DNA from: Rubrobacter calidifluminis
GTDB lineage: Bacteria; Actinomycetota; Rubrobacteria; Rubrobacterales; Rubrobacteraceae
DNA: 39,898 nucleotides
Direction of reading: 5' to 3'
Assembly (NCBI RefSeq): GCF_028617075.1
Contig: NZ_JAQKGV010000022.1
Span: forward strand, 1-39,898
Position 1 is the first letter of the stretch; every line of letters begins with the position of its first letter. Both the position numbers and the translations under genes were made by a program. The notes beneath the pieces are model-generated. The model had not been told where the DNA came from. It worked only from the letters and a program-made list of their open reading frames with translations, and searched no databases. Positions 11,325-29,096 of this stretch are shown here, piece by piece.

Positions 11325-12527
11325 TCAGGCGACGAAGCGCCAGCTGACGAACAGGGCGCACAGGAAGAGCGAGAAGGCAATGCTCACGGTGAGCCAGAGG
11401 CACAATGTGGTCTTTCTTTTCCCGACGAGGGCACCGAGCGTGATGAAGATCGGGAAGGCCACGAGGACGAAGCGCGGCATGCCCATGAGTGGGCTCTGCG
11501 GGGTGCCGAAGAGCGCGGGGACGGCGACGAGCAGGAAGGCGTAGGCGCTCATCCCCGGCGGGAGGATCCGCACCCCGGCCGCGAGGAGCGCCAGGGCGAG
11601 CAGCAGGAAGAGCAGGCTGTACGTTGCGTTGGTCGAGGCCAGGTGATCCATGAGGCTCCCGGAGCCGGAGCCGGGGCGCATCCCGGAGAGTTGTGCGAGC
11701 CCCCAGCCGGCCTGCTCGAACGCCGTTACGAGGGCGTGGAGAGGTCCGGTGGGTTCCCTTCCCCAACGCCTCTGTCCTGTGTAGAAGAGGAGCAGGTTGC
11801 CGAAGCGCCACCAGAGGTAGGCGGCGTAAAGGAGAAGTCCGGAGGGGGCGAGAGCGAGGCAGGCGGCACCCCGCAGGCCGTACTCACGGCGGCGGCGCAG
11901 CCACTCCAGGGCCAGAGGCACGAGGAGGAAGACGCCCACGTTGCGGGTGGCGCAGGCGAGACCGGCCAGGACGCAGGCGAGCAGGAGGTTCTTCCGCACC
12001 CTCACGGCCCACAGCGAGCCCGCCGAGAGGGCGAGGAAGAGGCTCTCGGTGTAGACGGCGTTCAGGAAGAAAGCCGTCGGGAAGAACGCGAGCACGAGCA
12101 CGGAGGCCCGCGCCGTCCGCGGGCCTCCGAGGTCCTCCGCCAGGCGGTAGACGAAGTAGAGCGCGAACGGCAGCGCGGCGAGAGAGACGATAACGCCCCA
12201 CACCCCGAGGGCGGGGAGGGAGACGGGACCGCCGGAGAGGGAGTCGAGGGCGCGCACCAGCAGCGGGTAGAGGGGGAAGAAGGCCGGCGACTCGTCGTAG
12301 GGTGGGTTCAGGTAGCCGGAGGCGGCGAGGTGGATGTAGTGCTCGCCGTCCCAGTGCGACCACGTGTTCAGTCGGCCGTAGGGGACGTCCGAGGTCCGCC
12401 TCTGGAAGGAGCTTATGGGGAGAGCGTGGGCCATGATCGCCCCGGCGGCGAAATAGAGGAGGCGGCTTGCGGCGTAGACGCCGAGGACGAAGGCGAAAGG
12501 ACGCCTGGCTGCCGCCTTGTGGCTCAT
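11325..12527 (-). CDS. PIG-V-like GT-C mannosyltransferase
   Basis: 400 residues, with about 10 or more membrane segments. Family features are SHWDGEHYIHLAASGY near residue 60 (an acidic loop after the first helix, as in GT-C enzymes), FFPLYPLLVRAL, and AFFPTAFFLNAVYTESLFLAL, which is the hallmark of PIG-V/bacterial mannosyltransferase relatives. Such enzymes use lipid-phosphate sugars (for example polyprenyl-phosphate-mannose) on the outer face of the membrane. It starts one base after the stop of the 726-residue membrane protein, so the two are co-translated. Donor and acceptor are not determined. Confidence 0.82.
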   Translation of the reverse strand: MSHKAAARRPFAFVLGVYAASRLLYFAAGAIMAHALPISSFQRRTSDVPYGRLNTWSHWDGEHYIHLAASGYLNPPYDESPAFFPLYPLLVRALDSLSGGPVSLPALGVWGVIVSLAALPFALYFVYRLAEDLGGPRTARASVLVLAFFPTAFFLNAVYTESLFLALSAGSLWAVRVRKNLLLACVLAGLACATRNVGVFLLVPLALEWLRRRREYGLRGAACLALAPSGLLLYAAYLWWRFGNLLLFYTGQRRWGREPTGPLHALVTAFEQAGWGLAQLSGMRPGSGSGSLMDHLASTNATYSLLFLLLALALLAAGVRILPPGMSAYAFLLVAVPALFGTPQSPLMGMPRFVLVAFPIFITLGALVGKRKTTLCLWLTVSIAFSLFLCALFVSWRFVA

Positions 12528-12528
12528 C

Positions 12529-14709
12529 CTATCCCGTATGCGAGAAGTGGCGCGGCGCGACGATCAGGACGTCCTGGTTTTCGAAGACCGTGCGGTAGAG
12601 GTTCGGGTACCGCTTGAAGAGCGTCCAGTAGGGAATCACCGGCCGGTCGGGCTCCCACTTGTAGAGGACGATGTAGCGCACGTCGTATCTCTTCAGTATC
12701 TCCTGGGTCTTCTGGCCCTGAGGATGCCCCATGACCCACAGCACGTCCCAGTAGCGCTGTGGGGGATGGGGGGGGAGATCCCGCGGGTGGGCGACCTGCC
12801 CGGCGGTAAACGACTGCAGAGCGCTGTAGTGTCCCATCGCGAGCATCATCCTGCTCGGGACCTGGTTCGACTGCGGGCTGACCATGATGTTGCCGCCGGT
12901 GTTGTGCTCCTTGAGCCACTCGCCGGCCGCCGCTATCTGCGGGGTCATGGTGACCTCAGGGCTGGGGCCTGCGGCCTGCTCGATGCTTTGTACCGCACGC
13001 AGCCCGACGAGCCCGCCGACGAGCAGCACCGCGGCCGCGGCGGCGTAGACGGAGAGCGGCCCCCGCAACCACAGCAGGGAACGCAGCAACATGACCAGAG
13101 AAAAGGCGGCGAACAGCGCAAGTGGGACGCTTATGTCGCGCCCGAAGCGCTGGGGGAATCCGGAGAGCGAAGTACTGCTACCCGCCAGCATCACCAGGAA
13201 CCATACGAGCAGCGTCACCTTCGAGAGCACCGCCGCACCCTCGCGTCTGCGGGCGACGAACAGGAAACCCGTGCTCAAGACCACGCCCAGGAGCCCGAGC
13301 CAGGCTATCGGCTGGGAGATGGTGGTGGCTATCATCACAGCATAGCCGTAGGGAAGCTGGGTGCCTATGGCCATCTCGACCGCGCTTGCCGTCTTGCCGG
13401 TCCCGGAAGCTCCCTCAAGGAGATGGGCGACGAGGCGGGGGATGTGGTAGGTGTCCCAGGCGTAGGCCACCGAGAGAACCGCCAGTAGAACGAGGCTGAA
13501 GAAGAGCGTCGCGGCATCCTTCCTCTGGCGGGTGAGGAGGAGGTAGACCAGGGCGAAGACCGCTACGGGCGCGAGCAGCACGACCAGATAGAGGGTCGTC
13601 ACCTGATGGTAGAGGACGACCCCGGAACCCAGGATGGCGAACGCGAGCCCGCTGCGCCAGCCGGGACTGGAGTAGAGCGAGACCAGGGCGCAGACGGTCA
13701 TGACCAGCAGGATCTGGGCGGCGGTGAGGTTCGGGTACATCGCGTCGTCGAAGTAGTAGTAGATGCCCCCGGCGAGGAAACCACCGAAGAACGCCGCTGC
13801 GACCCCTGCCTCCCACCCCCACATCCTGCGCCCGAGCGCGTAGAGGGCGAGCGTGGGACCGAGCATCATCAGCGGGGCCATGACGGGGAAGGTGTCGAGC
13901 GGCTCGACTCCGCTCAGGCGCGAGATCTCCGCGGTCAGCAGATGGAATCCCGGCGGGTAGATAAGGTAGGAGGAGTCGTTGCCCGTGGAGAGCATCAGGT
14001 TGGCCATCACCGCGTGCGAGTAGTTGTCCACCCCGCGGATGAACGGCCAGTCGTGCAGCACTGGGCCCGAGTAGCCGCGCACGAGCACCGCGAGCAGGAC
14101 CAGCCCGAGCAGCACTGTTTTCGTCCGGCCGCCAGAGTCCACGCTTCGCTCTCCCGCATCCTCCCCCCCCGATCCGGCCCAGGAGAGCCGGCGGGAGCTC
14201 CACACCTGCACGACCCCGGCGAGCACCACGAGCGCTGCCACCGGGATCATGAACAGCTGTGCCTCGCCGCCAGCCGTGCAGGCCGGGGATGGCCAGCCCC
14301 AGCACGAGCCCGCGGTCCAGAAGAGCCCCTGGTAGAGGAAATCCCCGGCCAGCACCAGCGCCGCCGCCAGCGCGAGCGGGACCAGAGAAGGGGCGGCGAG
14401 CGGAACGGGTACTCCAGCCACCGGCCTCTTCTCAGGCTTCCCCGCCGCTCCGAACGTCAAGAAGAATCCAACTCCCACGAGAAAGACCACCGCAGGAGCA
14501 GTCACCGCCAGCGGCAGCGTCAGCCCTCCGTCGGTCAGGCGCACCTCGATCAGGGCCGCAGCCGGGACCAGCACCATCGAGAAGGCGACGGCGTGGATCA
14601 CCCTCCCTGCCAGGTCACCGCCGTCAGCCAGCCACCGTGCCCAGAACCAGCCCGGAACCAGCACGAGCACCAGGGCGATCGGCACCACACGAACGAGATC
14701 GAGGATCAC
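12529..14709 (-). CDS. Large GT-C-like integral membrane glycosyltransferase
   Basis: 726 residues with about 13-15 hydrophobic segments. A soluble C-terminal part begins near residue 575. FIRGVDNYSHAVMANLML near residue 225 is an acidic extracytoplasmic loop of the GT-C type, and YPPGFHLLTAEISRLSG follows, a common arrangement in large bacterial membrane glycosyltransferases (DUF6541-like). The C-terminal domain (AAAGEWLKEHN, VRYIVLYKWEPD) resembles the periplasmic domains of such proteins. The start is GTG with ACGGAGG upstream. It precedes the PIG-V-like gene in an operon and is divergent from the UDP-sulfoquinovose synthase operon. The sugar and acceptor are unknown; the family assignment rests on topology and loop motifs only. 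Confidence 0.65.
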   Translation of the reverse strand: MILDLVRVVPIALVLVLVPGWFWARWLADGGDLAGRVIHAVAFSMVLVPAAALIEVRLTDGGLTLPLAVTAPAVVFLVGVGFFLTFGAAGKPEKRPVAGVPVPLAAPSLVPLALAAALVLAGDFLYQGLFWTAGSCWGWPSPACTAGGEAQLFMIPVAALVVLAGVVQVWSSRRLSWAGSGGEDAGERSVDSGGRTKTVLLGLVLLAVLVRGYSGPVLHDWPFIRGVDNYSHAVMANLMLSTGNDSSYLIYPPGFHLLTAEISRLSGVEPLDTFPVMAPLMMLGPTLALYALGRRMWGWEAGVAAAFFGGFLAGGIYYYFDDAMYPNLTAAQILLVMTVCALVSLYSSPGWRSGLAFAILGSGVVLYHQVTTLYLVVLLAPVAVFALVYLLLTRQRKDAATLFFSLVLLAVLSVAYAWDTYHIPRLVAHLLEGASGTGKTASAVEMAIGTQLPYGYAVMIATTISQPIAWLGLLGVVLSTGFLFVARRREGAAVLSKVTLLVWFLVMLAGSSTSLSGFPQRFGRDISVPLALFAAFSLVMLLRSLLWLRGPLSVYAAAAAVLLVGGLVGLRAVQSIEQAAGPSPEVTMTPQIAAAGEWLKEHNTGGNIMVSPQSNQVPSRMMLAMGHYSALQSFTAGQVAHPRDLPPHPPQRYWDVLWVMGHPQGQKTQEILKRYDVRYIVLYKWEPDRPVIPYWTLFKRYPNLYRTVFENQDVLIVAPRHFSHTG

Positions 14710-17175
<2,466 letters not shown>

Positions 17176-17180
<5 letters not shown>

Positions 17181-17208
17181 CACGCCGTCCGTCCCCCGGC
17201 GTGCTACC
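17176..17208 (+). terminator. Perfect 12-bp hairpin after the GT2 gene
   Basis: GGTAGCACGCCG (17176-17187) pairs fully with CGGCGTGCTACC (17197-17208) around a 9-nt loop. The GT2 stop codon TAG lies in the left arm. The run CTCATCTT follows, so there is no proper U-tract. It lies only 12 nt before the flippase start. It may be a partial terminator, an mRNA-stabilising stem or a processing site that sets lower flippase expression. Confidence 0.55.
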
Positions 17209-17217
17209 CTCATCTTC

Positions 17218-18492
17218 GTGATGTTCTCCTCCCTACGGAGCATGCTCAAGGCCCGTCAGCAGGGTGTGGGCGCGGGCAGCGCCTACATGATCGTCTCCCT
17301 GGGCATCTCCGGCGTCCTGACCTACGCCTTTCAGAGCTTCGCGGCTCACACCCTCGGCAGGAGCGGCTACGGGCCGCTCGCGCTGCTCTGGTCCGCGACC
17401 TTCCTCACGGTGCAGGTGCTCTGGATCGCCGGCACCCAGACCCTCGGGCGCTACGTCTCCGAGCGGGCCGCCCGGGGCGAGGACTGGCGTCCCGTGGTCG
17501 CCTCGGTGCGCCGCTGGCAGGCGGGACTCGCCGCCGGCTTCGTAATCCTGGCGGCCGCCGCGAGCCCGATCCTCACCAGGGAAGTCTTCCAGGGGCACGC
17601 CTGGCTGAGCTGGACCTTCATAGCAGCCGTGGTCGCCTACGCGCCGGAGTACTTCCGGCGCGGCATCTTCAACGGCCACCGCCAGTTCTCCCGCCTCGGG
17701 GCCCAGCTCGTCTCCGAGCAGACCGGCAGGCTCGTCATAGCTGTGGTGCTGCTCGCCGCGGGGCTGGGCGTCTTCGGGGCGGCGGTCGCGATCGTACTCG
17801 CCCCGATCATCGGGGTGCTCGCCGTGAGACCCACCCCGGCCGACCCGCCGCAGAAGGAGGGCGAACCCTTCTCCGCTGGGCGGGCGGCTCGCTTCGCCGC
17901 GCCCGTGCTCGTCTGCATGGCCGTCGCGCAGGCCTTCGCCAACGGCGGCGTGATCCTGGTGAGCCTGCTCGGCGGCACCCTCCCGCAGGTCAGCGTCTTC
18001 GCCGCGGCCCTGATCCTGACCCGCATCCCACAGTACGTGCTGAGCCCGGCCGTCGAGAGCCTGCTGCCGCACGCGAGCCGTATCCTCGCCTCCGAGGGCC
18101 GCGCTGCCTTCGAGCGCTTCGTCGGGAGGGCGCTCGGCCTCGTGGCGCTCGTCGGGCTGCTCATGGTCGCCGGGACCTGGCCGCTCGGGCAGTGGGCGGT
18201 GCGGCTCTTCGCCGGTTCGGACTTCCACGCCAGCAGAGGGCTGCTGGTCATGCTGGCCGCCCTGGCCGCCTTCTACCTGGTCTGCGACATGTTGAACCAG
18301 GCGCTCTTCGCCCGCGGGCTGGCCAGGCTCGCCGCGCTCGCCTGGGTGCTCGGGCTGCCCGTGGCGGGCGCGTCTCTCGCGCTCTCGGGCGCCGGGGTGA
18401 TGAGCCGGGTCGCCCTCGCGCTGCTCGCCGGGATGGTCGCCGTCTCGCTCTTCCAGGTCGCCTTCTACCTGCTCAGCGGCTCCCGCGAATAA
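17218..18492 (+). CDS. Polysaccharide/lipid flippase (MOP superfamily)
   Basis: 424 residues with about 12 hydrophobic segments in the Wzx/MATE-like MOP pattern. An early amphipathic stretch SAYMIVSLGISGVLTYAFQSFAAHTLGRSGYGPLALL resembles the N-terminal helix pair of Wzx-type flippases. The predicted role is translocation of a polyprenyl-linked sugar or glycolipid across the membrane. GTG at 17218 and ATG at 17221 are both possible starts; neither has a ribosome site, and a perfect hairpin ends 9-12 nt upstream. A further ATG at 17242 has GGAG very close. It follows the sqdB-GT2 pair and ends in a 20-bp convergent overlap with the epimerase gene. Confidence 0.75.
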   Translation: MMFSSLRSMLKARQQGVGAGSAYMIVSLGISGVLTYAFQSFAAHTLGRSGYGPLALLWSATFLTVQVLWIAGTQTLGRYVSERAARGEDWRPVVASVRRWQAGLAAGFVILAAAASPILTREVFQGHAWLSWTFIAAVVAYAPEYFRRGIFNGHRQFSRLGAQLVSEQTGRLVIAVVLLAAGLGVFGAAVAIVLAPIIGVLAVRPTPADPPQKEGEPFSAGRAARFAAPVLVCMAVAQAFANGGVILVSLLGGTLPQVSVFAAALILTRIPQYVLSPAVESLLPHASRILASEGRAAFERFVGRALGLVALVGLLMVAGTWPLGQWAVRLFAGSDFHASRGLLVMLAALAAFYLVCDMLNQALFARGLARLAALAWVLGLPVAGASLALSGAGVMSRVALALLAGMVAVSLFQVAFYLLSGSRE

Positions 18493-19486
18493 ACCACTCC
18501 GCCGTGCGCCTCAGGCCCTCCTCCAGGCTCACCTCGGCCTGCCAGCCGAGCATCCGGCGGGCCTTAGAGGTGTCCGAGTAGTTGCGCTTCACGTCGCCCG
18601 GTCTGGGCGCGGCGTGTCGGATCTCCACGTCCTCTATCCCGAAGTCGGAGAGCACCGGAATGAGCTTCTCGACGAGCTCCAGCACCGTCGTCTCCGAGCT
18701 GGTCGCGATCTGGAAGATCTCACCACCCACGCCCGGCCTCTCGGCCGCGAGCCGTACCGCGCGCACGAGATCTTCTATGTAGATGAAGTCCCGGGTCTGG
18801 GTGCCGTCGCCGTAGATCTCGAGCGGCTCGCCCCGCATCGCCCGGCTGATGAAGCGCGGGACCGCGTTCAGGACCTTGTGCCCCGAGCCCGGGCCGTAGA
18901 CGTTGCCGAAGCGCAGCGCCACGGTCTCGAGCCCGTAGGCGAGGAAGTAGGCCGAGCAGTAGCCCTCACCGGCGAGCTTGCTCGCCCCGTAGGGGCTCGC
19001 CGGGTGCGGGGCGAGGTTCTCGTGTATCGGGGGCTCGACCTCCCCGACCGCAGCCCCGCTCGAGGCGAAGACGAACCTCCCCGCCCCCGCGTGACGGGCG
19101 GCCTCCAGGTAGTTGAGCGTCCCCACGACGTTGGTGAGGCAGTCCTTGCGCGGGTTCTCGACCGAAGGGGCGACGCCGGTGTTCGCCGCCAGATGCACCA
19201 CCACCTCAGCGCCCCGCGCCGCCCGCAGCGCGAGCTCGTCGTCGAGGATGTCCCCGACGACGAGCTCCACCCCCTCCCCCGCCATCTCCCCGACCTCTTC
19301 TGCCGGGGTCTCCGAGAACCCGCACACCCCGGCGAGATCCTCCTGGCTTCCCACCGAGAGGTCGTCGAGGACCCTGATCGAGTGTCCCCCCTCCGAGACG
19401 AGCGCCCCCACGAGCGCGGAGCCTATGAAACCGCAACCCCCGGTGATGAGCCAGTTCAAGGAAGCCCCCTTCTCACTCTGAGCCAT
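18473..19486 (-). CDS. NAD-dependent sugar epimerase/dehydratase (GalE-like)
   Basis: 337 residues of the extended SDR family: ITGGCGFIGSALV (NAD site), VVHLAANTGV, FASSGAAVGE, YGASK (catalytic Tyr/Lys), RFGNVYGPGSGH, GDGTQTRDFIYIEDLVRA. These are the hallmarks of UDP-glucose 4-epimerase-like enzymes, but the substrate within the family cannot be settled. The ATG at 19486 lacks a ribosome site. A TTG ten codons in is preceded by AAGGGGGG at good spacing and also keeps the full NAD-binding strand, so the true start may be there. It lies downstream of the Nudix gene on the same strand, and its 3' end overlaps the flippase gene by 20 bp. Confidence 0.85.
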   Translation of the reverse strand: MAQSEKGASLNWLITGGCGFIGSALVGALVSEGGHSIRVLDDLSVGSQEDLAGVCGFSETPAEEVGEMAGEGVELVVGDILDDELALRAARGAEVVVHLAANTGVAPSVENPRKDCLTNVVGTLNYLEAARHAGAGRFVFASSGAAVGEVEPPIHENLAPHPASPYGASKLAGEGYCSAYFLAYGLETVALRFGNVYGPGSGHKVLNAVPRFISRAMRGEPLEIYGDGTQTRDFIYIEDLVRAVRLAAERPGVGGEIFQIATSSETTVLELVEKLIPVLSDFGIEDVEIRHAAPRPGDVKRNYSDTSKARRMLGWQAEVSLEEGLRRTAEWFIRGSR

Positions 19487-19492
19487 CCGACA

Positions 19493-19513
19493 CGGTGGCG
19501 GAGTTTACCACCG
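19493..19513 (-). other. Small hairpin between Nudix and epimerase genes
   Basis: CGGTGG and CCACCG (19493-19498 and 19508-19513) form a 6-bp stem with a 9-nt loop in the 32-nt gap between two same-strand genes. It is too weak to be called a terminator. Confidence 0.3.
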
Positions 19514-19518
19514 GCAGA

Positions 19519-19998
19519 CTACTCCAGCACCACCGGCCCCCGGGCCCCGGAGAAGTACGCCGCGAGCACCGGTCTTCCGGTCTCTATGACGTCGAGCTCC
19601 TCGATCTCCTCCCGGCTGAAGAACGCGAGATCGAGCGACTCCGGGCTGCGCCGGAGACCCGAGAAGTCCTCCACCGAGACCCGGTAGGCGAACGAGATCA
19701 CCCGCACGACGTTCCCGTCGGGGTAGGCGACGATCTTCGACGGATCGGAGAAGACGCAGAAGAGTTCCGAAGAGCTCACCGAGAGCCCGGTCTCCTCGCG
19801 CACCTCGCGCCGGAGCGCCTCCCCGAGCGGCTCGTCGACCTCAACCGCCCCGCCCACCATCCCCCACCGTCCGCAGTCGCTACGCCGCTCCAGGAGCAGA
19901 CGCTCCTCGCGCTCGATGAGCGCCATCACCCCAACCATTATCGGGCGGTTGGGGCGCGGAGCGCCGGGGTTTCTGTAGAAGAATCTGGCCGGTGGCAG
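19519..19998 (-). CDS. Nudix hydrolase with probable CTG start
   Basis: 159 residues if started at CTG 19998, 139 from ATG 19938. The Nudix box is complete (GAVEVDE then REVREETGL, residues 50-72 in the longer form), giving metal-dependent hydrolysis of a nucleoside-diphosphate-linked compound. The ATG has no ribosome site. In frame, 20 codons upstream, CTG is preceded at 6 nt by AAGGAGGG, the best ribosome site in this area, with a TAA in frame just before it. The extra residues (FFYRNPGAPRPNRPI) look like the N-terminal strand common to this Nudix subgroup. The substrate is unknown. Confidence 0.75.
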   Translation of the reverse strand: MPPARFFYRNPGAPRPNRPIMVGVMALIEREERLLLERRSDCGRWGMVGGAVEVDEPLGEALRREVREETGLSVSSSELFCVFSDPSKIVAYPDGNVVRVISFAYRVSVEDFSGLRRSPESLDLAFFSREEIEELDVIETGRPVLAAYFSGARGPVVLE

Positions 19999-20060
19999 AG
20001 AGCTCCCTCCTTACTCGTAGCCAGGAGCCGATTCTAGCAAAGCCGGGATCTCCACCGGAG

Positions 20061-20082
20061 GTTACCGATCTGTTACCCGATT
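20061..20082 (+). promoter_or_regulatory. 11-bp-period direct repeat (PHO-box-like)
   Basis: GTTACCGATCT (20061-20071) is followed directly by GTTACCCGATT (20072-20082). A 7-bp unit GTTACC(G/C) repeats with a 4-bp spacer. The site is 83-104 nt before the start of the cis-prenyltransferase-like gene and about 50 nt before the Nudix ribosome site on the other strand. TCTCAAGAAAA (20082-20092) overlaps its end by one base. This spacing is the binding geometry of PhoB/PhoP-type regulators. Confidence 0.4.
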
Positions 20083-20164
20083 CTCAAGAAAACTTAAGGT
20101 AGACGTACGATCATGCTGGTATCAAGGGGCTTGGCGGAAGAGCGCGAAAAGGAGTGAGCCCTTC

Positions 20165-20839
20165 TTGAAGCTGATCCGGAGAAAGCCCACACGAAGCAAG
20201 CGCAGGAGACCCAAGGCCTCGCCGGCCCGCGTGGCGCTGGTGGCCGAACGCAGCGGCCCGCGGGAGGCCCCACCCCTCGTCCCCCTGCTGGAAGCCGCCG
20301 GAGAACTCGGGATGAGGACGCTCATGATCTGTCCGCCGCCCGGCGGCGAGGGCGGCGTCATCTCCGAAGTCGGTGCGGGGGAGGCGCTCCGGCTCGGGGT
20401 ACGCCTGCGGTTCTGCGGCCTCCCGGAGGAGCTCCCGGAAGAGCTGCGGCGCGAAGCCGCGCGGGCGGAGAGCCTGACGGCCCGCGCCCGCGGCCTGGAG
20501 GTGTGCATGACCCCGGGACACCACGGGGGCCGGGCGGAGATCGTCGCGGCGGTAAAGTCCCTCGCCGCGGAGGGCGTCCCACCCGAGAAGATCGACGAGG
20601 CCGCCATCTCCGGACGTCTCGCCGCTCCCGCCGCCTGCGATCTGGACCTGATCGTCTACGCCGGAGACCGCCCGCGCTTCTCGGACCTCCTGCTCTGGGA
20701 GATGGCCTATGCCGAGTTCTACGCCGCCGGCCGCCCGTGGCCGGAGCTCACCGCCGCGGACCTGGAGCGGGCGGTCGAGTCCTACGCCTCCCGGTCTCGC
20801 CGCCGCGGAGGCGTAGAGCCCGCGGACACCGGCTCCTAG
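20165..20839 (+). CDS. Degenerate cis-prenyltransferase (UppS-like) paralogue
   Basis: 224 residues. The C-terminal two thirds aligns well with undecaprenyl diphosphate synthase: VRLRFCGLPEELPEELRREA, ARAESLTARARGLEV, GGRAEIVAAVKSLA, DLLLWEMAYAEFYAAGRPWPEL. The catalytic parts are changed. The MDGNGRWA motif with the essential Asp is replaced by VALVAERSG; the FSxENWxRP segment is missing; and IRTGGExRxSNF becomes VYAGDRPRFSDL, keeping only the second arginine (Arg171). It is about 30 residues shorter than UppS. Enzyme activity is therefore unlikely; it may be a partner subunit, as NgBR/Nus1 is for eukaryotic enzymes. The start is TTG with AAGGAG 10 nt upstream. A normal UppS would be needed elsewhere in the genome. 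Confidence 0.75.
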   Translation: MKLIRRKPTRSKRRRPKASPARVALVAERSGPREAPPLVPLLEAAGELGMRTLMICPPPGGEGGVISEVGAGEALRLGVRLRFCGLPEELPEELRREAARAESLTARARGLEVCMTPGHHGGRAEIVAAVKSLAAEGVPPEKIDEAAISGRLAAPAACDLDLIVYAGDRPRFSDLLLWEMAYAEFYAAGRPWPELTAADLERAVESYASRSRRRGGVEPADTGS

Positions 20840-21795
20840 AGCTCCTTCAGCGCCCCCGCCAGCTCGCGCTCGTAGAAGGAGCAGAACTCTTTCTGTTGCT
20901 CGCCTATCTGGATGAGCGCCACCCTTCTGAAGCCGGCCCCGGCGAATTCCCTCACGCCCTCGACGATCCCCTGCGGGTCCGGCCCGCAGGGGATCATCTG
21001 AGCAACGTCCTCCTCCCGGACGCTTGCGGCGAAGGCCTCGAAGTTGGTCGTGTTCGGAAGCTCGGACTGTATCTTCCAGCCGCCGAGAGCCCAGGCGAAC
21101 TGCTCGTGGGCCAGCCTGCGGCATTCTTCTTCGTCTTCGCCCCAGCACACCGGAAGCTGCGCGACACCGGGCTTCCCCTCGCCGCCCCCCGCCTCGAACA
21201 TCTCGACGAGCTCCCGCCGCGGCTCGATGGCGATGAGGAAATCCGCCAGGTTTCCGGCCAGCTCGCAGGAGCGCGGCCCGCTTGCCGCGATCCCGATCGG
21301 CACCTCCCCTTCCGGCGCATCGAAGAGCCTGGCCCCCTCGACGTCGAAGTACATCCCGCGGTGGGTCACGTAGCGCCCGGTGAAGAGCTCCCGGATTATC
21401 TCTACGGCCTCGGCGAGCATCTCGTGCCGGACGTCCACCTGCGGCCAGCCCCGCCCGACGACGTGCTCGTTCAGGTTCTCCCCGGCCCCGAGCCCGAGCG
21501 AGAACCGCCCGCCCGAGAGCAGCGAGACCGTGGCGGCTTTCTGCGCCACGATCGCCGGGTGGTAACGGATGGTGGGACAGGTGACGTAGGTCATGAGTGG
21601 GATGCGCTCCGTCACCTGCGCCACGGCCCCCAGCACCGCCCAGGCGTAGCCGGAGTGACCCTGCGCCTCGAGCCAGGGATGGAAGTGATCGCTCATCACC
21701 GCGAAATCGAAGCCCGCCCGCTCGGCGAGAACCGCATCCTGCACGAGCTCGCGCGGCGAACGCTGCTCGCACATCAGCGTGTAGCCTATCTCCAT
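20836..21795 (-). CDS. F420-dependent LLM-class oxidoreductase (G6PDH-like family)
   Basis: 319 residues of the luciferase-like monooxygenase barrel in the F420-dependent glucose-6-phosphate-dehydrogenase-like subgroup. Diagnostic sequence: MEIGYTLMCEQRSPRELV, AGFDFAVMSDHFHPWLEAQGHS, YVTCPTIRYHPAIVAQKAATV, GLGAGENLNEHVVGRGWP, VRHEMLAEAVEIIRELF. It would catalyse hydride transfer between F420 and an alcohol-type substrate. The open frame continues far upstream, but the ATG at 21795 has GAGGAGGGA before it and starts exactly at the conserved first strand. It converges on the cis-prenyltransferase-like gene (4-bp overlap of ends) and diverges from the E1-alpha gene. F420 use supports an actinobacterial host. 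Confidence 0.88.
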   Translation of the reverse strand: MEIGYTLMCEQRSPRELVQDAVLAERAGFDFAVMSDHFHPWLEAQGHSGYAWAVLGAVAQVTERIPLMTYVTCPTIRYHPAIVAQKAATVSLLSGGRFSLGLGAGENLNEHVVGRGWPQVDVRHEMLAEAVEIIRELFTGRYVTHRGMYFDVEGARLFDAPEGEVPIGIAASGPRSCELAGNLADFLIAIEPRRELVEMFEAGGGEGKPGVAQLPVCWGEDEEECRRLAHEQFAWALGGWKIQSELPNTTNFEAFAASVREEDVAQMIPCGPDPQGIVEGVREFAGAGFRRVALIQIGEQQKEFCSFYERELAGALKEL

Positions 21796-21927
21796 CCGGA
21801 ATCCCTCCTCTACTCGTTCTCCACCGACAGCCGCTTTGTACCCGCCCGGAGGAGAAGCTATCCACCGCTCCCTTCCCGGAGCCGGCCGTTTATGAAACAA
21901 TATGCACATCAGAGGAAAGGAGGAGTG

Positions 21928-22905
21928 ATGGACGCGAGTACACGCCTCTCGCTGTACAGGACGATGGTACGCATCCGGGCCTTCGAGGAGGCGATAAGAC
22001 GGGAGTACTACGTGGGCAAGCAGCCCGTCTTCGACATCGGGGCCGGCCCGGTACCGGGCGAGATGCATCTCTCGGCGGGCCAGGAGCCGGTGGCCGCCGG
22101 GCTGTGCGCCCATCTCGGGCCCGACGACGCCCTCACGGGGCCTCACCGCCCGCACCACATCGCGCTCGCCCACGGGGTGGACATGAAGCGGATGACCGCT
22201 GAGATCTTCGGGCGCGAGAGCGGCCTGTGCCACGGCAAGGGCGGTCACATGCACCTCTTCGCCCCGGAGGTCCACTTCGGATGCTCGGGGATAATCGCGG
22301 AGGGCATGCCGACAGCCTGCGGGCAGGCGCTCGCGTTCAAGAAGCGCGGTACAGATCAGGTGGCGGCCGCCGTCGTCGGGGAGGGGGCCGTAAACCAGGG
22401 CGGCTTCCACGAGTCGCTCAACCTCGCCGCGCTGTGGAAGCTCCCGGTGATCTTCGTCGTTGAAGACAACGACTGGGGGATCTCGGTGCCCCGCTCGGCC
22501 TCGACTAGCAACTTCTCGGCCACCGACCGGGGCCGGGCCTACGGCATCCCCGGCGAGCGGGTCGAGGACAACTCGGTGGAAGGCGTCTACGAGGCGTGCG
22601 GACGCGCCGTACAGAGGGCGCGCCGGGGCGAGGGACCGTCGCTGGTAGAGGTGCACACCCTGCGGCTCTGGGGCCACTTCGAGGGCGACGCGCAGGGCTA
22701 CCGCCAGAGTGAGCTCGAAGACGTGCCGGGGCGCGACCCGATCCCGACCTACCGGAGGACGCTCATCGAAGAGGGCGTGCTCGACGAGGAGGAGGCCCAG
22801 AGGATCCGGGCCGAGGCCGAAGAGGAGGTCGAGGCGGCGATCCGGTTCGCCAAAGAAAGCCCCGAGCCCGCCCCCGATGAGGCGCTGGAGCACGTCTTCG
22901 CCTGA
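21928..22905 (+). CDS. 2-oxoacid/acetoin dehydrogenase E1 component, alpha subunit
   Basis: 325 residues, the length of PdhA/AcoA alpha subunits. GPVPGEMHLSAGQEPVAAGL at the N-terminal side, LCHGKGGHMHLF, and the thiamine-diphosphate motif VVGEGAVNQGGFHESLN...VVEDND are typical. RLWGHFEGDAQGYR near the C-terminus is the phosphorylation-loop equivalent. The enzyme decarboxylates a 2-oxoacid or cleaves acetoin using ThDP, with the beta subunit. The frame is open for more than 1.4 kb upstream, but AAAGGAGG before the ATG at 21928 and family alignment fix the start. It is followed by E1-beta and a lipoyl protein. The sequence resembles acetoin dehydrogenase as much as pyruvate dehydrogenase, so the substrate is open. 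Confidence 0.88.
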   Translation: MDASTRLSLYRTMVRIRAFEEAIRREYYVGKQPVFDIGAGPVPGEMHLSAGQEPVAAGLCAHLGPDDALTGPHRPHHIALAHGVDMKRMTAEIFGRESGLCHGKGGHMHLFAPEVHFGCSGIIAEGMPTACGQALAFKKRGTDQVAAAVVGEGAVNQGGFHESLNLAALWKLPVIFVVEDNDWGISVPRSASTSNFSATDRGRAYGIPGERVEDNSVEGVYEACGRAVQRARRGEGPSLVEVHTLRLWGHFEGDAQGYRQSELEDVPGRDPIPTYRRTLIEEGVLDEEEAQRIRAEAEEEVEAAIRFAKESPEPAPDEALEHVFA

Positions 22906-22923
22906 GGGAAAGGAGGACGGAAG

Positions 22924-23952
22924 ATGACGACCGCAGAGAGGACCCGCGAGAGGCGGTTAACCACCGCGCGGGCGATGGTCGAGGGCATCGCGCAGGAGAT
23001 GCGCCGCAACGAAGAGGTCTTCGTCATGGGAGAAGACGTCGGCGCCTACGGCGGCATCTTCGGCACCACCACCGGGCTCCTCGATGAGTTCGGTCCCGAG
23101 CGGGTGATGGACACCCCGATCAGCGAGACCGGGTTCATCGGCGCCGGGATCGGGGCCGCCATCGAAGGGATGCGCCCCATCGTCGAGCTGATGTTCGTCG
23201 ACTTCTTCGGCGTGTGCATGGACCAGATCTACAACCACATGGCCAAGATCCACTACGAGTCCGGCGGCAACGTCAGGGTGCCGATGGTCCTGATGACCTC
23301 GGTCGGCGGTGGCTACTCCGACGGGGCCCAGCACTCGCAATGCCTGTGGGCCACCTTCGCCCACCTGCCGGGGATGAAGATCGTCGTCCCCTCCAACCCG
23401 CGCGACGCCAAGGGGCTCATGATCTCCGCGATCCGGGACGACAACCCCGTCGTCTACATGACCCACAAGGGCATCATGGGCCTGGCCTGGATGGCCAAGA
23501 ACGCCCGCTCGGTCGGCCCGGTACCCGAAGAGGAGTACGAGGTCCCGATAGGCAAGGCGAGCGTGGCCCGCGAGGGCACCGACGCCACCGTCGTGACCCT
23601 CTCGCTCTCGGTCCACCACGCGCTCGACGTGGCCGAGCGGCTCTCGGGAGAGGGCATCGAGCTGGAGGTCCTCGACCTGAGGAGCCTGGTCCCGCTCGAC
23701 CGGGAGGCGATCCTGGAGTCGGTCGGCAAGACCGGCAGGGTGCTCGTCGTCGACGAGGACTACCGATCCTTCGGTCTCTCCGGCGAGATCGCCGCGACGA
23801 TCGTCGAGGAGGACCCCGCGATGCTCAAGGCCCCGCTCGCGCGCGTCGCGGTACCGGATGTCCCGATCCCGTACGCGAGGCCGCTCGAACGGGCGGTCCT
23901 GCCCACCCCCGAGCGGATAGAGGAGGCAGCGCGCGGGCTGGTGGGCGCTTGA
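22924..23952 (+). CDS. 2-oxoacid/acetoin dehydrogenase E1 component, beta subunit
   Basis: 342 residues, transketolase-like pyrimidine-binding domain followed by the C-terminal transketolase domain. Features: VFVMGEDVGAYGG, RVMDTPISETGFIGAGIGAA (with the conserved Glu that activates ThDP), MVLMTSVGGGYSDGAQHSQ, HLPGMKIVVPSNPRDAKGL, VLDLRSLVPLDREAI. It forms the alpha2beta2 E1 with the upstream gene (18-nt gap, AAAGGAGG ribosome site). Its stop TGA overlaps a TTG start of the lipoyl protein (TTGA), so the three are co-translated. Confidence 0.9.
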   Translation: MTTAERTRERRLTTARAMVEGIAQEMRRNEEVFVMGEDVGAYGGIFGTTTGLLDEFGPERVMDTPISETGFIGAGIGAAIEGMRPIVELMFVDFFGVCMDQIYNHMAKIHYESGGNVRVPMVLMTSVGGGYSDGAQHSQCLWATFAHLPGMKIVVPSNPRDAKGLMISAIRDDNPVVYMTHKGIMGLAWMAKNARSVGPVPEEEYEVPIGKASVAREGTDATVVTLSLSVHHALDVAERLSGEGIELEVLDLRSLVPLDREAILESVGKTGRVLVVDEDYRSFGLSGEIAATIVEEDPAMLKAPLARVAVPDVPIPYARPLERAVLPTPERIEEAARGLVGA

Positions 23953-24182
23953 TCGAGGTCCGCTTCCCTCTCCTCAACGAGAGCGAGCCCGACGCCGAGG
24001 GGGTGCTCGCCACCTGGTTCGTCGGCGACGGCGAAGAGGTCGGGGAGGGTCAGCTTCTGTGCGAGGTCCAGGTGGAGAAGACCTCCGAGGACGTCCACGC
24101 GGAGGGGGCGGGCACCATCCGGCTCGCGGTCTCCGAGGGAGAGGTGGTCCGTCAGGGAGAGGTGATCGCCCGCATAGAGTAG
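23949..24182 (+). CDS. Free-standing lipoyl-domain protein
   Basis: 77 residues, one biotinyl/lipoyl domain and nothing more. The N-terminal strand is IEVRFPLLNES. The hairpin turn LLCEVQVEKTSEDV puts Lys44 where lipoic acid is attached (EVETDKA in E2 proteins). The domain closes with GTIRLAVSEGEVVRQGEVIARIE. The TTG start is inside the E1-beta stop (TTGA). E2 proteins normally continue with a subunit-binding domain and a 230-residue acyltransferase core; here a stop follows at once and the next gene is convergent. It could act as a mobile lipoyl carrier for the E1 pair, using an acyltransferase and E3 from elsewhere. Biotinylation is less likely given the missing MKM motif. Confidence 0.85.
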   Translation: MIEVRFPLLNESEPDAEGVLATWFVGDGEEVGEGQLLCEVQVEKTSEDVHAEGAGTIRLAVSEGEVVRQGEVIARIE

Positions 24183-28475: not shown

Positions 28476-29096
28476 TCAGCGCAGAGAGGCGCGCTGCCTT
28501 CCCGTACGGCGACTTCCCTGGGGGAGCGGGAGGTGGAGGGCAAGTATCATCCTGTCGGCCAGGCGGCTCAGCGCCCGCATCGCGGGCTCGAGCCAGAGGA
28601 CGAGCACCGTGGCGACGACCGTTCCCACCACGAACCCGCCGGCGATGTCCCCCGGGTAGTGCTCCCCCACGTAGACGCGGGCGTAGCTCATCAGGGCGGC
28701 GTAGAGGAGCGCGAGAACGCCCAGCCGGCGATGGAAGGCGAGGAGCACGAACGAGATCGCGAAAGCCGCCGAGGCATGGTCGCTGGGAAACGAAGCATCG
28801 GCCGGATGGTGGGTCAGGAGGTGAACGGAGAGCGGATGGCTCACGAACGGCCGCGGCCTGTACCACAAGTGGCTTATGACCACGTTGGCCAGCAGCGCAA
28901 CCCCGGCCCCGATGAGCGCGGTTATCGCGCCGCGGCGCTCACGTTCGAGCCCCCTCACCCAGCCGATCAGAAACCACAAGACGATCAGGCCGACGAATAT
29001 CCCGACGGCCCATCCCGCGGCGCGTACCATCACGGCGTCGAGCAGCGGATGATGCCCGGCCGGTGCGTTGATCAGATGCTCCACACGATAGTCCAA
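28476..29096 (-). CDS. PAP2-family membrane phosphatase
   Basis: 206 residues with about five to six hydrophobic helices and the three acid-phosphatase motifs: YRPRPF (C1), FPSDHASAAFA (C2) and ARVYVGEHYPGDIAGG (C3, catalytic His and Asp). Bacterial relatives dephosphorylate undecaprenyl diphosphate (BcrC type), phosphatidic acid or phosphatidylglycerol phosphate. The start is TTG with GAGAGGA 6 nt before it. It is divergent from the MGDG-synthase-like gene and shares with it an intergenic region carrying two sets of 11-bp direct repeats. Phosphatidate phosphatase activity would supply diacylglycerol for that glycosyltransferase; this is inference. Confidence 0.86.
   Translation of the reverse strand: MDYRVEHLINAPAGHHPLLDAVMVRAAGWAVGIFVGLIVLWFLIGWVRGLERERRGAITALIGAGVALLANVVISHLWYRPRPFVSHPLSVHLLTHHPADASFPSDHASAAFAISFVLLAFHRRLGVLALLYAALMSYARVYVGEHYPGDIAGGFVVGTVVATVLVLWLEPAMRALSRLADRMILALHLPLPQGSRRTGRQRASLR

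Follow-up and report, generated by a model that had tools for sequence, protein, structure and literature searches.

Heteromeric cis-prenyltransferases (cis-PTs) with one catalytically dead subunit have already been described from eukaryotes, and one heteromeric cis-PT has been described from archaea. In the human enzyme, the RxG motif is reported to reach across the dimer interface and enter the partner's active site; transverse contacts of the RxG type are also made in homodimeric cis-PTs, and the motif is present in NgBR, while its arginine is missing from Nus1 (PMC7573591). Non-catalytic subunits resemble other cis-PTs solely in their C-terminus (PMC7839719). The archaeal case, MM_0618/MM_1083 of Methanosarcina mazei, is a heteromeric cis-PT thought to make a glycosyl carrier lipid (cited in PMC8131916); it would resemble the arrangement considered here as a prokaryotic two-gene cis-PT and differs in being archaeal. 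Bacteria do have two-subunit prenyltransferases, such as HexA/HexB, with HexA as the presumed determinant of chain length and HexB as the catalytic subunit, and HepS with its partner (PMC7839719), but these are trans-type enzymes with another fold. A bacterial heteromeric cis-PT was not found in the literature searched, which covered few subscription papers.

The UppS of bacteria is regarded as homodimeric. Here we describe a UppS paralogue from Rubrobacter calidifluminis that has lost its catalytic residues in all three genomes of its genus, and we weigh the roles that it might have. The stretch of DNA analyzed, hereafter the window, comprises the 39,898 nucleotides of contig NZ_JAQKGV010000022.1.

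Gene and family assignment

The window genome (G000; 3.09 Mb in 54 contigs, 96% complete) encodes one normal UppS, located on another contig (G000:C23:30846-31496, 271.6 bits), plus the paralogue, a cis-PT-fold pseudoenzyme of 224 amino acids at 20165..20839 on the forward strand. The paralogue begins with TTG, and a likely ribosome-binding site, AGGAG, lies 10 nt 5′ of this codon (20150..20154, forward strand); both elements are identical in all three genomes of the genus. GC content by codon position is coding-like (0.76/0.58/0.88), which, together with a frame that is open in all three genomes, argues that the reading frame is not a product of chance. Orthologues with 97% identity occur in both other genomes of the genus (G001 and G002), each of which likewise carries one normal UppS.

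The paralogue matches the PF01255 profile with 93.5 bits (E value, 1.7e-26), exceeding the Pfam gathering cut-off of 27, with the match confined to profile positions 78-219. Its score against the UppS equivalog TIGR00055 (70.0 bits) falls below the cut-off of 109.55. Searching PDB sequences returned bacterial UppS as the best matches (about 1e-21) and DHDDS at an E value of 0.014; NgBR/Nus1 was absent from the matches listed up to an E value of 1. A viral or plasmid origin was considered and rejected: the viral contigs searched held no relative, and the plasmid search gave no match covering 80% of the query.

Conservation of catalytic residues and predicted structure

We compared the paralogue with active enzymes in an alignment of 48 UppS sequences, including that of Escherichia coli, and scored 45 invariant or near-invariant positions. 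Retention is uneven: 3 of the 21 near-invariant residues in the N-terminal half are kept, compared to 16 of 24 in the C-terminal half (Fisher P = 0.0007). Changed or deleted positions in the N-terminal half include Met25, Asp26, Gly27, Asn28, Arg30, Trp31, and His43 along with Phe70, Ser71, Glu73, Asn74, Trp75, and Arg77. The C-terminal half has lost Arg194, Thr195, Gly197, and Glu198, and from Arg200 to the C-terminal end 13 of 14 near-invariant residues remain, the exception being Asn203, now Asp. Losses and retentions are the same in all three orthologues, in each of which Asp26 is Glu, Asn28 is Ser, and Arg30 and His43 are deleted.

These changes fall at recognizable motifs. The catalytic motif MDGNGRW is reduced to AERSG followed by an 8-residue gap; the degenerate loop AERSGPREA (residues 27-35; 20243..20269, forward strand) stands in place of MDGNGRWAKRRLLPRTAGHRAG, with the substitutions D26E and N28S, deletion of R30, W31, and H43, and loss of two helices. 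The FSTENW segment falls inside a 7-residue deletion, whose site is marked by CPPPG (residues 56-60; 20330..20344, forward strand), and R77 is replaced by proline. Farther downstream, IRTSGELR of UppS corresponds to VYAGDRPR, so that VYAGDRPRF (residues 164-172; 20654..20680, forward strand) replaces IRTSGELRV, with R194Y, T195A, G197D, and E198R and with R200 kept. The segment that follows, SDLLLWEMAYAEFYAAGRPW (residues 173-192; 20681..20740, forward strand), retains the equivalents of S202, E213, and W221, and the C-terminal RxG motif is kept as Arg213-x-Gly215 within RSRRRGG (residues 210-216; 20792..20812, forward strand). At the other end of the protein is a basic tail, MKLIRRKPTRSKRRRPK (20165..20215, forward strand), in which 10 of 17 residues are lysine or arginine and which is identical in the three genomes.

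An AlphaFold2 model of the paralogue (mean pLDDT, 79.3) matches cis-PT structures with Z scores of 17 to 19.6 (best match 1f75, 190 residues at 2.4 Å), a UppS-like fold that is partly expected because the input alignment consisted mostly of UppS. The basic tail is modeled at low confidence and without secondary structure. For comparison, the normal UppS of the genome was modeled in the same manner (pLDDT 84.6). In that model, strand 1 is followed by two helices (17-23 and 28-36), and helix 3 spans 24 residues (68-91). The paralogue model is without both post-strand-1 helices, and its helix 3 is broken into two short helices. From the third strand onward, the elements of the two models match closely.

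The preliminary description had held that the C-terminal parts of UppS are well kept while the catalytic Asp motif and FSxENW are gone and the IRTGGE site is altered. The alignment bears this out on every point, with the refinement that the aspartate is replaced by glutamate ahead of the gap, and the structure modeled alone, as had been suggested, agrees with it. It is therefore well supported by the motif losses and the model that the paralogue is an intact, UppS-derived pseudoenzyme whose own UppS active site is no longer functional.

A protein of this kind could have taken on a stand-alone role, for example by binding a phosphorylated isoprenoid or other ligand at Arg200/Ser202 or by using the glutamate in place of Asp26 in a new reaction. 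R200, S202, E213, and the glutamate at position 26 do remain, and His/Tyr differences between genomes at residues 119-120 would also be compatible with such a role. Yet the helices of the N-terminal half, which line the product tunnel in UppS, are deleted or broken, and R194, R30, H43, N74, and R77, which bind substrate in UppS, are all gone; we regard a stand-alone role as decidedly unlikely.

Origin and distribution

Apart from the three orthologues, a protein search at E values of ≤1e-34 recovered a single UppS, from G004, which has the full catalytic motif. The search took in 39 genomes of the family and 396 of the phylum and found no orthologue outside the genus; the phylum census of PF01255 covers the best matches listed, with low-scoring copies outside its view. 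In FastTree phylogenies, which contained no eukaryotic or archaeal subunit, the three orthologues cluster with Rubrobacteraceae UppS (support, 0.81 for the C-terminal part and 0.76 for the full alignment), in a basal position and on a long branch of 1.2 to 1.5 substitutions per site. Two histories are compatible with this position: an ancient duplication whose copy was lost in other lineages, or a more recent duplicate that evolves quickly and is pulled toward the base by its long branch. Rubrobacteraceae UppS (TIGR00055/PF01255) shares with the paralogue the fold, the RxG tail, and 39 to 46% identity across the matched, mainly C-terminal part; the paralogue differs in lacking the catalytic Asp, FSxENW, RTGGE, and N-terminal helices and in having an extra basic N-terminal tail and a short C-terminal extension. 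As a separate observation, the UppS reading frame of another genome (G023, L033) is interrupted in its assembly downstream of the FSTENW motif; a sequencing error is the probable cause, as this is the only copy found there among the matches listed.

Frame integrity and selection

None of the three genomes carries a stop codon or frameshift in the paralogue; the sole length difference among the orthologues is an in-frame 12-bp repeat unit. A pseudogene created by frameshift is therefore rejected, and the decay that the preliminary description had named as a refuting sign is not seen. It had also called for a look at selection across orthologues; the signal within the genus is weak. Pairwise dN/dS is 0.29 to 0.45 for the paralogue; neighbouring genes give 0.06 to 0.22, and UppS gives 0.12 (comparisons with G000). 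Nine of 18 variable codons change the amino acid, which is marginally low against neutral expectation (P = 0.045 to 0.08) in a test whose power is small because the genomes are exceptionally alike across the block at ∼15 to 24 kb.

These values raise the prospect of a duplicate under relaxed selection, with no cellular role and a frame that is still open for want of time. The elevated dN/dS and the share of amino acid-changing codons would suit it, as would confinement to one genus and the loss of about 815 bp from the adjacent LLM gene in two of the three genomes, a sign that genes decay at this spot. Its difficulty lies in the length of the branch: by a rough estimate, which assumes that 2 to 3% of mutations make a stop and uses a JC distance to UppS of 0.65, an unconstrained gene should have acquired several stops, whereas none is present. 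The long branch and the open frame thus argue for constraint through most of the gene's history. All gaps, moreover, are in frame, and losses are concentrated at the catalytic pocket, with the C-terminal end spared, so that we judge relaxed decay to be unlikely.

Two side observations concern divergence across the locus. G001 and G002 are near-identical across most of it, and within window positions 19500-21000 the NUDIX hydrolase gene and the paralogue differ more (7 and 11 changes, respectively) than do their neighbours. Within window positions 15000-24000, G000 and G001 differ by about 1 to 5%, compared to 19 to 24% in the flanks (at about 11, 14.5, 25.5, and 28 kb), and the high similarity of this block may reflect either recent exchange or strong constraint.

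Proposed role

Our best explanation, which we consider a serious possibility that stops short of being probable, is that the paralogue is a non-catalytic cis-PT subunit derived by duplication of a Rubrobacteraceae-type UppS, which dimerises with the genome's UppS and thereby alters its activity, product length, or location. Among conceivable uses of such a protein, dimerisation with UppS appears most likely because the C-terminal half is kept and the rest lost, as in described non-catalytic subunits. The paralogue would pair with the single active UppS through this conserved half, and its RxG tail would enter and complete the UppS active site, its own site being dead; the basic N-terminal tail may keep the complex at the membrane. 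The genome's UppS, unlike DHDDS, keeps an RxG tail of its own and should therefore function unaided as a homodimer, so any effect of the paralogue would be modulation rather than rescue.

The mechanism would be NgBR/Nus1-like but separately evolved from bacterial UppS. The preliminary description had raised such a partner role, in which a bacterial counterpart could tune carrier-lipid chain length or activity, and its interpretation is partly supported: the anatomy (C-terminal dimer half and RxG tail kept) is a close fit. Like NgBR/Nus1, the non-catalytic subunit of eukaryotic dehydrodolichyl diphosphate synthase, the paralogue combines the cis-PT fold with the absence of an active site, is similar to active enzymes mainly at its C-terminus, and has the RxG motif as in NgBR. 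It differs in that its nearest relatives are bacterial UppS, its presumed partner has an RxG motif of its own, and it has no transmembrane anchor. In NgBR the transmembrane part does the membrane holding; reading the paralogue sequence by eye, we found no hydrophobic or transmembrane segment, and the basic tail is there instead.

The same anatomy would suit a negative regulator, whose heterodimers with UppS leave fewer working sites and thereby damp carrier-lipid synthesis, and a UppS that requires no helper sits comfortably with such a function. A pure poison subunit would not need an RxG motif, yet the motif is present in all three orthologues, and we think a negative-regulator role quite unlikely. 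The partner-subunit explanation has points against it as well. The dN/dS values are above those of neighbours and UppS, with a marginal signal of purifying selection inside the genus; also counted against it are the RxG tail that UppS has of its own, a location away from uppS, the lack of a promoter in consensus scans, the restriction to one genus, and the missing transmembrane segment. The scans, for promoters and terminators alike, returned nothing at this gene, a result of little weight in a GC-rich genome.

It is possible, and we put this forward tentatively and with some doubt, that the pair represents the first bacterial heteromeric cis-PT, in which a dead UppS-derived subunit acts in trans to complete the cognate UppS site and governs the output or length of the carrier lipid. 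If so, it would be a separate bacterial invention, and the split between catalytic and helper subunits would have evolved more than once. It would also offer a small, apparently soluble system for testing what a helper contributes (RxG in trans, chain length, membrane placement).

Genomic surroundings

The paralogue gene stands alone, flanked by a divergent NUDIX hydrolase gene and a convergent F420-type oxidoreductase gene, and is not adjacent to uppS. The adjoining oxidoreductase is an F420-dependent LLM protein (TIGR03557; window 20836-21795, reverse strand); in G001 and G002, about 815 bp (21042-21855) are missing, so that most of the LLM gene is gone and the adjacent paralogue is intact. 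Other genera do have relatives of the NUDIX gene and of the LLM gene, and a neighbourhood conserved beyond the genus was considered and rejected: in the sole genome where both have close relatives (G012), these are on different contigs.

Upstream, at 11325-19486, lie genes encoding a PIG-V-like mannosyltransferase, a DUF6541-like membrane protein, two sugar epimerases, a polyprenyl-phosphate-type glycosyltransferase (GT2 with DUF2304), and a weakly flippase-like membrane protein, which likely form a polyprenyl-linked glycan locus. A pathway of this kind would presumably require a polyprenyl carrier, a suggestive link to the paralogue, with which it shares no operon. Elsewhere in the window, a PAP2-superfamily phosphatase (28476-29096, reverse strand) is a possible lipid-diphosphate phosphatase.
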